Positions 43,807-50,438 of a DNA stretch of 64,000 nt are shown here, in pieces. The number at the start of each line of letters is the position of its first letter. Within the stretch, counting starts at the first letter, position 1. Origin of the DNA: Dendronalium phyllosphericum CENA369 (lineage in GTDB: Bacteria; Cyanobacteriota; Cyanobacteriia; Cyanobacteriales; Nostocaceae); contig NZ_JAECZA010000005.1 of assembly GCF_016056275.1 (NCBI RefSeq), positions 11,628-75,627 of the forward strand, in the 5' to 3' direction. A program made the translations under genes and the position numbers. Under the pieces are notes generated by a model. The model was not told where the DNA came from and searched no databases. It worked only from the letters and a program-made list of their open reading frames with translations.

Positions 43807-44283
43807 ATAGAAAAAAGGTGTGTGCCAACAGTCAAATGGATTATTTTATCCGATCGATAGATGCAAAAACAAATTTTACAATACAGCATTCAGGAGTCAG
43901 GAGGAGGCAGTGCGTTGCGGAGGTTCCCTCCGTTGTAGCAACTGCCGTCCAGAATTCAGAATTTGCCTAAGTACAAGTGGCGTATGAATAAACAGTGAAA
44001 TACCACACTAAATCTTCGATTTAGTCTTCTTAAATTTAGTGGCAAGTCTAAATCCCACACTAATTAATTCTGACTCCTGAATTCTTCAATTTAAAATAGC
44101 TTTATCGGCAAAAGTAGCTTTACAGTGTAATTATAAGTCCTAGCCAGACGAAAAACTTAAAGTTATGAGCTTCACTTCGTTGTTAATTCAACCGTCAAGA
44201 GTTATGAAGTTGAATTATCATAAAGCTTCGGAAGTGATTATAAATACTTAACAAATGTTTGGCTAAATATCTTGGAGTGTAGA

Positions 44284-46914
44284 ATGTTAGAATCTTATCG
44301 TCAACACGTTGCCCAAAGAGCAGCACTAGGAATTCCTCCTTTACCTTTAGATGCAAAGCAGACATCAGAACTGTGCGAACTATTGAAGAATCCGCCAGCT
44401 GGTGAAGAAAGTACATTATTACATTTATTGCGCGATCGCGTTCCTCCTGGTGTTGATGAAGCTGCTTATGTCAAAGCTGGATTTCTCACCGCCATTGCCA
44501 AAAAGGAAATCAGCAGTCCCTTGATTTCATCCATAGAAGCAGTAGAATTACTGGGAACAATGGTAGGTGGCTACAACGTCCAAGCTTTAATTGACTTGCT
44601 GCAATTACCCACCAAATCTGTATCAGAATCTGCCGATGCACCTTTGGTAATGGGCGGACAAGGAAAAGAACCAATAGCCGCACACGCCGCCACTGCCTTA
44701 AGCAAAATTTTGTTGGTGTATGATGCCTTTCACGATGTTTTGGAGTTATCTAAAACTAACCCCTTCGCCAAGCAAGTGATTGACTCTTGGGCAGAAGCTG
44801 AGTGGTTTACTACTCGTCCGCAGCTACCAGAATATATTAACGTCACCGTTTTTAAAGTCCCCGGCGAAACCAACACCGATGACTTATCCCCCGCCACCCA
44901 AGCCACGACTCGCCCAGACATTCCCTTACATGCGTTGGCAATGCTGGAGTCAAGACAACCGGGAAGCTTAGAAACTATTGCCGAGTTGAAGAAGAAAGGA
45001 CATCCTGTTGCTTACGTGGGGGATGTAGTTGGTACTGGTTCTTCCCGTAAATCTGCCATCAACTCAGTGTTGTGGCACATGGGAAATGATATTCCCTTTG
45101 TACCCAACAAACGCGCTGGAGGGTATATTTTAGGTGGTGCGATCGCGCCTATTTTCTTCAACACTGCTGAAGATGCTGGTGCTTTGCCAATTCAATGCGA
45201 TGTCACCAAGCTAGAAACAGGGATGGTGATAACCATCTATCCCTACAAAGGTGAAATTACCAACGAAGCAGGCGAAGTCATTTCCACCTTCACTCTCAAA
45301 CCCGATACCATTCTCGATGAAGTCCGTGCGGGTGGACGCATCCCCCTACTTATCGGGCGTACCCTCACCGATAAAACCCGCCAAGCACTCGGTTTAAAAC
45401 CTAGCACCGTCTTTATCCGTCCTCAACAACCAAGCGATACAGGCAAAGGCTACACCCTAGCACAGAAGATGGTAGGTAAAGCTTGTGGCTTACCTGGTGT
45501 GCGTCCCGGTACATCCTGCGAACCTATTATGACTACAGTTGGTTCCCAGGATACTACAGGCCCCATGACCCGCGACGAGTTGAAAGAACTCGCTTGTCTG
45601 GGTTTCAGTGCAGACTTGGTAATGCAAAGTTTCTGTCACACCGCCGCTTATCCCAAGCCAGTTGACATCAAAACTCATCACGAACTCCCAGACTTTTTTG
45701 CCCAACGTGGTGGCGTTGCCTTGCGTCCTGGTGATGGTATTATTCATTCTTGGTTGAACCGGATGCTGTTACCCGACACCGTAGGAACAGGCGGTGACTC
45801 TCACACTCGCTTTCCCTTGGGCATTTCCTTCCCTGCTGGTTCTGGGTTAGTTGCGTTTGCGGGTGCTTTGGGTGTCATGCCTTTGGATATGCCAGAGTCA
45901 GTTTTGGTACGCTTCAAAGGTGAATTACAACCCGGTATTACTTTACGGGATGTCGTGAATGCCATTCCCTACGTGGCAATTCAAAAAGGTTTGCTGACGG
46001 TAGAGAAGCAGAATAAAAAAAACGTCTTCTCTGGACGAATTATGGAAATTGAAGGCTTACCCGATTTAAAAGTGGAACAAGCCTTTGAACTTGCTGATGC
46101 TACTGCCGAGCGTTCCTGTGCGGGTTCTACCATTAAACTGAGTGTAGAAACAGTTTCTGAATATCTGCGTTCCAACGTAGCGCTGTTGAAGAACTTGATA
46201 GCAAGAGGCTATCACGATGCCCGTACCATCCTGCGCCGTGTGGCAAAAATGGAAGAATGGCTAGCAAACCCCGTATTAATGGAAGCAGATACCGATGCGG
46301 AGTATGCTGAAATCATTGAAATTGATTTGAACGAAATCAAAGAACCAATTGTTGCTGCTCCCAATGACCCCGATAATGTGAAATTATTATCGTCAGTTGC
46401 TAACGACCCAGTGCAAGAAGTATTCGTTGGTTCTTGTATGACAAATATCGGTCATTATCGGGCAACAGCAAAAGTTTTGGAAGGTGCAGGGGAGGTGAAA
46501 ACTCGCCTGTGGATAGCACCACCAACCCGTATGGACGAACACCAACTCAAAGAAGAAGGTGTGTATAGCATTTTTGGTGCTGCGGGTGCTAGGACAGAAA
46601 TGCCTGGATGCAGTTTGTGTATGGGAAATCAGGCGCGAGTTGCTGATGGCACAACAGTGTTTTCTACCTCGACACGCAACTTTAACAACCGTATGGGTAA
46701 AGATGCACGAGTGTATCTCGGTTCAGCAGAATTAGCAGCGGTTTGTGCATTGTTAGGACGCATTCCTACGGTGCAAGAATATATGGATATTGTGGCGAAG
46801 AAGATCGATCCTTTTGCTGATGATTTGTATCGGTATTTGAACTTTGATCGCATCGCTGGTTTTGAGGATGAAGGGCGCGTGATTTCTAAAGAGGATCAAG
46901 CGTTGTTAGTGTAG
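44284..46914 (+). CDS. acnB: bifunctional aconitate hydratase 2 / 2-methylisocitrate dehydratase
   Basis: about 876 aa; [57 protein letters not shown]. Confidence 0.96.
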
Positions 46915-47125: not shown

Positions 47126-48220
47126 ATGAGTTCTCAATTAGAAATTACAGATGAACGTAAAGAAAACGCTGAAGCAGAAATTCGTGACAAAACAAAGCGT
47201 GTTGACTACAACACCTTAGAATATCCCATAGAAGTGATTGTTCAAAAATACTTAGATGGAAAAGATGAAGACGAAAATGAATTATTTATTCCAGACTATC
47301 AACGAGAAATGGCTTGGGATGAAGATAGACAATCAAAATTCATCGAATCTGTAATGTTAGGTTTACCAATCCCCTCTATTTTTGTTGCTGATATATCAGG
47401 TTCAGACGATTTAGCACGTTTAGAAATTATAGATGGAACCCAACGTATTCGGACTTTAGCTAATTTTATTAACAATGAGCTAAAATTACAAAATCTTAAG
47501 AAATTGGAGAATCTGAATGGGTTTACTTTTCGAGATTTACCGTTACCACGTCAAAGACGTTTTAATAGAACCACGATGAGAATGATTCAATTAACAGAAG
47601 AAGCAGATGAAGAAATTAGAAGGGATCTTTTTGAGAGAATCAATAGTGGTAGTGTTGAATTGAATGAAATGGAGAAACGAAGGGGATCTCAACCAGGAAA
47701 GTTTCTCGATTTAATTGAGGAATTGTCAAAAGAACAACAATTTCGTGCTTTATGCTCTTTTACTGAAATTCAAATAAATAAGAGAGATCCACAGGAATTT
47801 ATTCTACGCTTTTTTGCATTTTTAAATAATTATAGAAACTACCCTGGTAAAAGTAATATTCATAAGTTTTTAGATGATTATTTAAAACAAGAAAATGAAT
47901 CAAAAACATTAGATATTAATGTGTATAAAGATGAATTTTCTTCAATGCTGCATTTTGTTACAAAATATTTTCCAGATGCTTTGCATACTTACGTAAAGAG
48001 CAAGAATCGCTACGAACCTACAACTAGAATTAAGTTTGAATCTATTACAGTGGGAGTTGCTCTAGCATTAAGAAAATATCCGACATTAATACTAAAATCT
48101 ACCAGTTTTTTAGATTCTGAGGAATTTAAAAAATTAACAAAATCTGATGCAAGTAGTTCGCAAAATAAAGTTATTAATCGTATTGAGTATGTTCGCGATC
48201 AGCTTTTAGGTAATTCATGA
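47126..48220 (+). CDS. DUF262 (GmrSD N-terminal / ParB-like fold) protein
   Basis: FIPDYQREMAWDEDRQSKFIESVMLGLPIPSIF, LEIIDGTQRIRTLANF, RRDLFERINSGSVELNEMEKRRG; no HNH C-terminal motif seen. Confidence 0.9.
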   Translation: MSSQLEITDERKENAEAEIRDKTKRVDYNTLEYPIEVIVQKYLDGKDEDENELFIPDYQREMAWDEDRQSKFIESVMLGLPIPSIFVADISGSDDLARLEIIDGTQRIRTLANFINNELKLQNLKKLENLNGFTFRDLPLPRQRRFNRTTMRMIQLTEEADEEIRRDLFERINSGSVELNEMEKRRGSQPGKFLDLIEELSKEQQFRALCSFTEIQINKRDPQEFILRFFAFLNNYRNYPGKSNIHKFLDDYLKQENESKTLDINVYKDEFSSMLHFVTKYFPDALHTYVKSKNRYEPTTRIKFESITVGVALALRKYPTLILKSTSFLDSEEFKKLTKSDASSSQNKVINRIEYVRDQLLGNS

Positions 48221-48930
48221 GAAGTATATTATTTCAAAATTTTGATGAACTCGCTCAAGAAGTTAGTAAATACTTTTTATTTTTGAAAAACCTAGAGCAA
48301 GGTTCAATTCTGTTAAGTATGGGTAATGCTAACAATATTAAAACTAAACCAATAAACAATGATTTAGAAAAAACTCTTAAAGCAACAGGATATTTGTTAC
48401 TCTACAACCTAGTTGAAGCTACAATGCGTAATGCTATTGAAACAATTTTTGATGAATTAATAACTCAAAGAGTTTCTTTTGATGAAGTGAGAGAAGAAAT
48501 AAGAAAAATTATTATTAATCATGTTAGAGATAAAGATATACAATCCACAGATGCTCTTTTACTAGGTCTCCAAAATATTTCAGTTGATATTATATCAGTT
48601 ACCTTTGATGCTCTTGTTAAGAAAGAGAATAAGAAAAGACTATTTTCAGGTAATGTAGATGCACGAGAAATAAGAAATACAGCAAAACTTTATGGATTTT
48701 CATCACAAACTAATAATATCAGAACTAGAGATGGCAGTGATTTATTAACAATTAAAACGAATAGAAACGATTTAGCACATGGTTTTAAGTCATTTGAGGA
48801 AGTTGGCAGAAACGCTACTGCTGATGAGTTATTGAAAATTCAAAAAAGTGTTAGATACTATTTAAGAGAAATATTAGAGAATATAGAGACGTATTTATCT
48901 AACAAAGAATATTTAAAGGTTGTTCTTTAA
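48217..48930 (+). CDS. HEPN-superfamily protein (MAE_28990/MAE_18760-like), predicted RNase
   Basis: ATGA overlap with the upstream DUF262 gene; all-helical 237 aa with C-terminal RNDLAH (RxxxxH) motif. Confidence 0.75.
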   Translation: MRSILFQNFDELAQEVSKYFLFLKNLEQGSILLSMGNANNIKTKPINNDLEKTLKATGYLLLYNLVEATMRNAIETIFDELITQRVSFDEVREEIRKIIINHVRDKDIQSTDALLLGLQNISVDIISVTFDALVKKENKKRLFSGNVDAREIRNTAKLYGFSSQTNNIRTRDGSDLLTIKTNRNDLAHGFKSFEEVGRNATADELLKIQKSVRYYLREILENIETYLSNKEYLKVVL

Positions 48931-48951
48931 ATATTCTTTGTTAGATAAATA
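48892..48951. terminator. 27-bp perfect inverted repeat with 6-nt loop spanning the HEPN stop codon
   Basis: TATTTATCTAACAAAGAATATTTAAAG-GTTGTT-CTTTAAATATTCTTTGTTAGATAAATA; could act as terminator or 3' structure. Confidence 0.7.
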
Positions 48952-49141
48952 AAAATGGTTATTTAGAAACTTTTATGTTAGTCCTCCATAAAAGTTCTAG
49001 TTGAATAAAATGTATAATCTAAAATTACTAAATCAACAAAAACTATAAGTAAATTTTATAATTAACTTGATGTTAAAAGTATAAGTTATTTTGAATACCA
49101 ATTTAAATTTGCATCGTACTTCCCAAAGTTACATACAAACT

Positions 49142-49227
49142 TAACCCCACAACCCCCTTCCCTACTAGGGAAGGGGGAGAAATCTGACTCCCCTCTCCGC
49201 GTCGGAGAGGGGTTGGGGGAGAGGTCA
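49142..49227. repeat. double-hairpin repeat, copy 1 (86 bp)
   Basis: stems CCCCCTTCCCT-act-AGGGAAGGGGG and CCCCTCTCCG-cgt-CGGAGAGGGG. Confidence 0.95.
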
Positions 49228-49268
49228 GCCATAATGTATGAATCAACACAAGCCTTTATGCTTTACAC

Positions 49269-49688
49269 ATGAGCAATCCAACATCACAGCAACCCTCGCC
49301 ACGGGAAGAGAAGGGAAATCGCAACATTGTTATTGGACAAAAAGTAAATCCAGTTAAACTACAACGTGCAAAAGAACTTCGTCGCCAAATGACACCAGAA
49401 GAAAAAATACTTTGGCAACATCTTCGTGCTAATCGCTTGCATGGTTTACACTTTCGTCGTCAGCAAATCATTGATGGGTTTATTGCAGATTTCTACTGTC
49501 ACGCGGCTAGATTAGTGATAGAAGTGGATGGAAAAATTCATGAACAACAAGCTGAATATGATGTAGAAAGAGGCAAAGTTTTGACAGGATGCGGACTGCG
49601 TTTGTTACGGATTAAAAATGAAGAAGTAAGACAGGAACTTGATAAGGTTTTGATACTTATTTCTCAGGCTTGTTGTAAAGAAACCTAA
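49269..49688 (+). CDS. DUF559 / Vsr-like endonuclease domain protein
   Basis: MTPEEKILWQHLRANRLHGLHFRRQQIIDGFIADFYCHAARLVIEVDGKIHEQQAEYDVERGKVLTGCGLRLLRIKNEEV. Confidence 0.92.
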   Translation: MSNPTSQQPSPREEKGNRNIVIGQKVNPVKLQRAKELRRQMTPEEKILWQHLRANRLHGLHFRRQQIIDGFIADFYCHAARLVIEVDGKIHEQQAEYDVERGKVLTGCGLRLLRIKNEEVRQELDKVLILISQACCKET

Positions 49689-49771
49689 CCCCCCAACCCC
49701 CTTCCCTACGAGGGAAGGGGGAGAAATTTAGCTCCCCTCTCCGACGCGGAGAGGGGCTGGGGGAGAGGTCA
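49686..49771. repeat. double-hairpin repeat, copy 2 (86 bp), supplies the DUF559 stop codon
   Basis: direct repeat of 49142-49227; TAACC overlaps the TAA stop. Confidence 0.95.
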
Positions 49772-49836: not shown

Positions 49837-50241
49837 CTAGCATTGAACTAACTTTATCGGAATATACTGACTAAAATTCTCAAAATGTTTGTCTGTGGTT
49901 AGGATTTTATAATTTCTCCGAACGGCTGCGGCACAAATTAGTAAATCAGTGTTTGTACTTAGAATGCTCTGGCGATCGCAAGCATAATAAAACTCAGAAG
50001 CAAGTTCGTAGTCTTCGATATCTAACTCAAGATTCGGAAATGCATGGAGATAATTTTTCAGTATATTATATTGAGCTGTATGACGAATTCCCGAAAGTAT
50101 TTCTTGTCTAATAGCACCCAGCAAAACAACTCGACCATCTGTAATTAAATCTCGAAACAATACAACATGGGATGAATGCTCAACTTTGGAATTGTGTCTG
50201 AGAGCTAAAAACCAAACTGATGTATCAACAATGACTTTCAC
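49837..50241 (-). CDS. PIN-domain toxin, VapC-like
   Basis: MKVIVDTSVWFLALR, acidic residues in GAIRQEIL and STNTDLLICAAAVRRN, ILTTDKHFE. Confidence 0.9.
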   Translation of the reverse strand: MKVIVDTSVWFLALRHNSKVEHSSHVVLFRDLITDGRVVLLGAIRQEILSGIRHTAQYNILKNYLHAFPNLELDIEDYELASEFYYACDRQSILSTNTDLLICAAAVRRNYKILTTDKHFENFSQYIPIKLVQC

Positions 50242-50438
50242 ATTCTTTGGCGCTGTTCTTTAAAGTCATAATTATCATCGTATTCAATTGTGCCGAATAG
50301 CTCTAAAATTTTCAACTGCTTTCGACGCTGCACATACTCTCGTAGTGCCTCTTCAATAACGGCACGTTTAGAAGTCTGACCACCAAGTTCCAGGGCTTCT
50401 TGAATTAAGTTTTCGACAACTTTGAGATTAGTATTCAT
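50238..50438 (-). CDS. VapB-like antitoxin
   Basis: MNTNLKVVENLIQEALELGGQTSKRAVIEEALREYVQRRKQLKILELFGTIEYDDNYDFKEQRQ; 4-nt overlap with toxin. Confidence 0.88.
   Translation of the reverse strand: MNTNLKVVENLIQEALELGGQTSKRAVIEEALREYVQRRKQLKILELFGTIEYDDNYDFKEQRQRM

Follow-up and report, generated by a model that had tools for sequence, protein, structure and literature searches.

Introduction

The locus described in this study bears a likeness to the REP/REPIN-RAYT systems, in which scattered palindromic repeats with a conserved head occur together with an enzyme gene that is flanked by repeats, single-copy and vertically inherited, and in which more repeats tend to accompany the enzyme. In E. 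coli, for example, RAYT-bearing genomes tend to contain more REPINs (PMC8049555). REP heads carry GTAG or CGTC tags (PMC3733652), in contrast to the C-rich heads (GACCT... or CCCTCACC...) reported here. A further difference concerns the enzyme: RAYTs are Y1 (HUH) tyrosine transposases, whereas the enzyme of the present locus is a putative PD-(D/E)XK Vsr-like nuclease of family DUF559.

Several proteins of the same DUF559 family as the nuclease studied here have been described, namely YcjD of E. coli, NGO0050 (3hrl) and VsrA of Caulobacter. YcjD has been assigned to the PD-(D/E)XK superfamily, close to Vsr (PMC1189080). VsrA has a functional link with ScmA, a solitary cytosine methyltransferase, in whose absence it accounts for the DNA damage response (PMC12907096). 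The accessible parts of the papers on these proteins do not describe a link to repeats; in the current study, ycjD was found to adjoin repeats that have solo relatives. A literature search, outside which most subscription journals and bioRxiv lay, found no report linking DUF559 to such repeats.

Results

A DUF559 gene between two double-hairpin repeats

The window, that is, the whole 64-kb stretch of DNA analysed from Dendronalium phyllosphericum CENA369, contains two copies of a double-hairpin repeat (approximately 49138-49228 and 49683-49771) that are 90% identical over 86 bp, with an intact DUF559 gene (49269-49688) between them. Each copy comprises two hairpins, CCCCCTTCCC-n5-GGGAAGGGGG and CCCCTCTCC-n5-GGAGAGGGG. 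The half-sites searched are confined to these two copies within the 64-kb window (four matches versus approximately 0.1 expected). The features are as follows:

44272 to 46914, + strand: acnB (aconitase B), conserved upstream neighbour of cyanobacterial class-A DUF559 genes (context, outside the repeat pair)
49138 to 49228, + strand: upstream copy of the class-A double-hairpin repeat, with heads AACTTAACCCCACAA and TTGGGGGAGAGGTC
49153 to 49177, unstranded: hairpin 1 of the upstream copy, CCCCCTTCCC-TACTA-GGGAAGGGGG
49190 to 49212, unstranded: hairpin 2 of the upstream copy, CCCCTCTCC-GCGTC-GGAGAGGGG
49269 to 49688, + strand: DUF559 (PF04480) gene for a putative Vsr-like nuclease of 139 aa, with invariant E85, D87, G88 and H91
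49683 to 49771, + strand: downstream repeat copy, whose head ACCTAACCCCCCAA forms the last sense codon and TAA of the DUF559 gene
49697 to 49721, unstranded: hairpin 1 of the downstream copy
49734 to 49756, unstranded: hairpin 2 of the downstream copy

The gene at 44272 to 46914 is presumed to be acnB, a name read from its protein and not from a family search. The first-pass annotation had described two-hairpin repeats on either side of a DUF559 ORF, of which the downstream one supplied the stop codon and the upstream one ended about 40 bp before the start. This layout was confirmed in each of its parts, as the TAA stop (49686-49688) lies inside the downstream head ACCTAACCCCCC, while 40 bp separate the end of the upstream copy from the ATG.

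Between acnB and the repeat unit, the window contains GmrSD-N and HEPN genes (47126-48930), the first of which resembles the defence proteins NsnA and PD-T4-2_A, and a possible terminator, a perfect inverted repeat of 27 bp, is found where the HEPN gene ends (48892-48951). Genes for a PIN-domain toxin-like and a VapB-like antitoxin protein (49837-50438) are located directly downstream of the unit.

Characteristics of the encoded protein

The window ORF belongs to DUF559 (PF04480, E=1.6e-36), and residues E85, D87, G88 and H91, representing a site of the EDxHD type, are invariant in an alignment of 62 sequences. The EDxHD motif is common to I-Bth0305I and DUF559. Profile searches returned 3hrl (E=1.2e-33) and the homing endonuclease I-Bth0305I (E=1.8e-4) as the closest solved relatives, and a structure model of the DUF559 protein (pLDDT 88) also matched these two first, with Vsr (1cw0, 1vsr) being a weaker match. 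We regard the window protein as a candidate Vsr-like PD-(D/E)XK nuclease with its active site kept. Padloc yielded only weak matches for this nuclease.

Repeats bracket many stand-alone DUF559 genes

DUF559 loci were sampled from the host's phylum, from named genomes of several phyla and from plasmid-collection records, and genes were considered bracketed at a flank-against-flank repeat score of at least 20. The proposal made for the window would have been refuted had the repeats shown no link to DUF559 genes and had DUF559 loci elsewhere lacked them, yet the opposite was observed: 88 of 188 DUF559 genes were bracketed, comprising 87 of 169 stand-alone and one of 19 fused genes, versus six of 293 control ORFs, a comparison in which approximately half of the stand-alone genes fell below the score, many class-A loci have the acnB site in common and are not mutually independent, and host composition is partly accounted for since the controls were drawn from the same loci. 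GC-rich hairpins on both flanks were present at 70/169 stand-alone DUF559 genes compared to 8/293 controls. Cognate palindromic repeats on the flanks of the enzyme gene are a feature shared with REP/RAYT systems.

A number of individual loci may be mentioned. Head-and-hairpin repeats accompany a DUF559 gene between sufB and sufC in Sphingomonas (L166) and another within the hpa gene group of Deinococcus (L165), while a Sinorhizobium DUF559 gene (L162) is followed by hairpin repeats which we take to be RIME-like, a kind known from rhizobia. Several contigs (L087, L091, L096, L120 and L129) end within approximately 100 bp upstream of DUF559, as would be expected if repeats break assemblies.

Repeat classes and nuclease clades

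Repeats were assigned to five head classes: A (GACCTAACCCCC), B (CCCTCACCCC), C (ACCCCACCCCC), D (CCCCTAAATCCCC and relatives) and E (GATCCCCC). On a tree of 79 DUF559 sequences of less than 70% identity, 43 of which were without a class, these labels, chosen by eye from the same data, required 21 changes as opposed to 33.6 in shuffles (none of 200 being as low). A label-free Mantel test of repeat words against protein identity gave r=0.26, a value that none of 2000 permutations reached. Class A is confined to a single DUF559 clade, across Cyanobacteriota, Chloroflexota, Planctomycetota, Thermodesulfobacteriota, Spirochaetota and Armatimonadota; class E is likewise confined to one clade and class D nearly so, while class B is scattered on the tree. 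Repeat class tracks nuclease clade across phyla, the effect being clear but modest. In classes A, C and E, the heads are mostly oriented towards the gene, unlike those of B and D. The C-rich heads, of the form GACCT... or CCCTCACC..., have neither the GTAG nor the CGTC tag of REP.

Solo repeats and their association with the nuclease

Among 30 hairpin loci from different genomes, 28 had no DUF559 motif within 1.5 kb, and most possessed the double hairpin with outward heads. The repeats are, as in REP/RAYT systems, multi-copy and scattered without the enzyme gene, with the host itself containing a modest number of about 3-10 copies. The class-A hairpin was detected in 19 of 21 genomes with a class-A DUF559 gene versus 46 of 224 without one (Fisher p=1.7e-10), the mean copy number being 34 and 2.9, respectively, an association that is confounded by phylogeny. 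Within genera, repeat number supports this link in g171 and weakly in g196 and g147, but not in g5, g47, g176 and g166. Many class-A hairpins also occur in G074 (82 copies), G019 (44) and G172 (33), in which no DUF559 was found by protein search.

A solo class-A element with GACCT...AGGTC as its boundaries was found in G401 and is lacking in its relatives G425, G482 and G413. This is the sole clean repeat insertion; no clear target duplication was seen at the site, and no class-A DUF559 gene was detected in G401. At a second class-A solo site that differs among related cyanobacteria, the relatives contain a different palindromic insert.

Within the 8.4-Mb host genome, which comprises 338 contigs, exact matches to the second hairpin were found at six places and approximate ones at about ten, and the first hairpin is present at three. 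Several of the solo host copies (L003, L004, L006, L013, L019 and L020) lie inside a longer MITE-like element with inverted AACGTGAGTTCGA ends, and L019 and L020 contain an additional hairpin insert. Of the two DUF559 genes in the host, the second (L002) also lies between repeats, in this case of an unrelated double-hairpin kind, which likewise extend to the stop codon. The two genes belong to different classes and do not represent copies of a single unit. As for Y1/RAYT transposases, a fragment of a Y1 gene but no intact one was found in the host genome. Across 28 Y1 loci of the host and five relatives, class-A heads were present in the 1.5-kb flanks of one only, more than 1 kb from the gene, and some Y1 genes of the relatives sit amid hairpins of their own. 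In G019, a RAYT-like gene with its own hairpin repeats is positioned downstream of acnB (L315), in the region where other cyanobacteria have DUF559.

Neighbourhood and inheritance of the class-A gene

In 38 of 59 cyanobacterial loci, the class-A DUF559 gene follows acnB on the same strand, at a distance of 0.2-4 kb downstream; most of the remaining loci have too little flanking sequence for this to be judged. Since this distance varies between species, the interval may be an insertion hot spot. The downstream head starts exactly three bases before the stop codon in 31 of the 40 class-A loci with such a head, a constancy that is in part due to shared descent at the acnB site. With a median dN/dS of 0.14, the class-A gene is under purifying selection.

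At the acnB sites of genomes without a class-A DUF559 gene, there is mostly no repeat within 1.5 kb. G417 retains the upstream repeat and approximately 25 bp beyond it but not the gene, which its congener G477 possesses, and G428 contains an apparent C-terminal remnant of the gene; both sites resemble gene loss. Among the few sites that could be examined, neither an empty site of the whole repeat-gene-repeat unit nor a target-site duplication nor recent whole-unit copies were found. The dispersing part is the repeat, while the gene stays in place across cyanobacteria.

The E. coli member ycjD

In E. coli, the DUF559 gene ycjD lies between sapF and fabI with related repeats downstream, and solo copies of the ycjD type occupy the sstT/alx, fepB/entC and ypfG/tktB intervals. 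The copies in sstT-alx and fepB-entC are arranged as hairpin-head, short spacer and head-hairpin. Across a spread of 60 records, 4-10 matching places were found with ycjD (ycjD included) and 1-6 without it, which, like the genome-level association above, is confounded by phylogeny; 832 of 5426 genomes match neither. The fepB-entC copy is missing in other strains, the length difference being 186 bp, and at sstT-alx one strain is without the middle part between both hairpins.

Other intervals were rejected as clean empty sites: at sapF-fabI the difference is an efflux island next to sapF, and ypfG-tktB and alx-sstT have other inserts in other strains (L173, L302-L310). The alx-sstT interval is also the location of TRIP1d (PMC10888264). 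TRIP1 elements resemble the ycjD-type repeats, which other strains have at this very site, in being GC-rich intergenic repeats, but are longer, and ycjD is absent from the main text of that paper.

Discussion

The first-pass annotation had likened the locus to REP/RAYT, with DUF559 substituting for the Y1 transposase. This analogy is well supported by the bracketing of stand-alone genes, by the match between repeat class and nuclease clade, and by the larger number of repeats overall in genomes with the nuclease, the contrasts within genera being mixed. It is quite probable that the DUF559 nuclease and the repeats are functionally paired, and the window gene with its repeats is probably one example of a widespread REP/RAYT-like pair composed of a stand-alone DUF559 nuclease and cognate repeats. 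From comparison of the sequences, we consider it likely that the nuclease acts on repeat DNA, while the spread of the repeats may conceivably, with the balance slightly against it, also be driven by the nuclease.

An alternative, which we consider unlikely, is that some other enzyme (Y1/RAYT or a different transposase) or plain recombination disperses the repeats, and that DUF559 genes come to lie between them since such repeats tolerate or attract insertions. Such a scenario would agree with the repeat-rich genomes without DUF559, with the insertion in G401 in the absence of a class-A DUF559 gene, with the host solo copies that lie within a MITE-like element with inverted AACGTGAGTTCGA ends, and with the unrelated palindromic repeats that can occupy the same sites in related strains. 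However, the host contains only a Y1 fragment, class-A heads occur at just one of 28 Y1 loci and more than 1 kb away, and random insertion leaves unexplained both the match of repeat class with nuclease clade and the stop-codon junction that is fixed in 31 of 40 loci.

We assign a lower probability to the notion that DUF559 is a repair endonuclease of the very-short-patch type, acting on T:G mismatches from deaminated 5-methylcytosine, with the repeats being mere neighbours. The main published alternative of this kind is provided by the tie between Caulobacter VsrA and ScmA (PMC12907096), and the fold of the window protein is weakly like that of Vsr (1cw0, 1vsr). A repair function predicts neither class-matched bracketing repeats across phyla nor the link between nuclease and repeat number, although such a function may apply in certain clades and would not conflict with an additional connection to repeats.

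There is a still slimmer chance that the gene and both repeats travel together as a small transposon or homing unit. The proximity of gene and repeats, the fixed junction, the occurrence of class A with the same repeats in several phyla and the relationship of the protein to I-Bth0305I (PDB 3r3p), a relative in both sequence and fold, would all be in keeping with such a unit. On the other hand, the window gene differs from that homing endonuclease in being without an intron or intein, in its position between multi-copy hairpin repeats and in being mostly kept in place; where homing would leave empty targets in gene-less relatives, the sole informative site resembles gene loss, and no empty site or target duplication was found. 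The acnB neighbourhood is kept across cyanobacteria, and the host has two DUF559 genes that differ in class. The 'minimal mobile unit' that had been suggested for the window copy did not find support, given the acnB neighbour in 38/59 loci, the dN/dS of 0.14 and the apparent gene loss in G417. Finally, GC-rich hairpins directly at the stop codon could insulate the nuclease gene by terminating transcription or stabilising mRNA, but this is very improbable as the repeats are multi-copy, their heads vary with nuclease clade, the upstream side is flanked too, hairpins on both flanks are rare in control genes (8/293) and all Rfam matches fall below the curated threshold.

Returning to a nuclease that is paired with its repeats, we propose that it would recognise the hairpin together with the C-rich head, most likely on separated strands as at a replication fork, and would nick or cut there, upon which repair would copy the repeat to a new site. 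DUF559 would thereby take the role that RAYTs have for REPINs, with tyrosine transposition replaced by a nuclease of the homing type and repair by the host, and the repeats beside the gene may be those that preserve the linkage between gene and substrate. More tentatively, and with the odds somewhat against it, stand-alone DUF559s might constitute the dedicated enzymes of a second, independent kind of REP system in many bacterial phyla, E. coli included. Each clade would have its own hairpin-plus-head repeat family, which it would recognise and disperse through nicking and repair by the host.

The pairing of DUF559 and repeats represents a candidate answer amenable to immediate testing, since E. 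coli K-12 possesses both a member of the family (ycjD) and its repeats. If true, it would provide a role for a common protein family that is still named as being of "unknown function".
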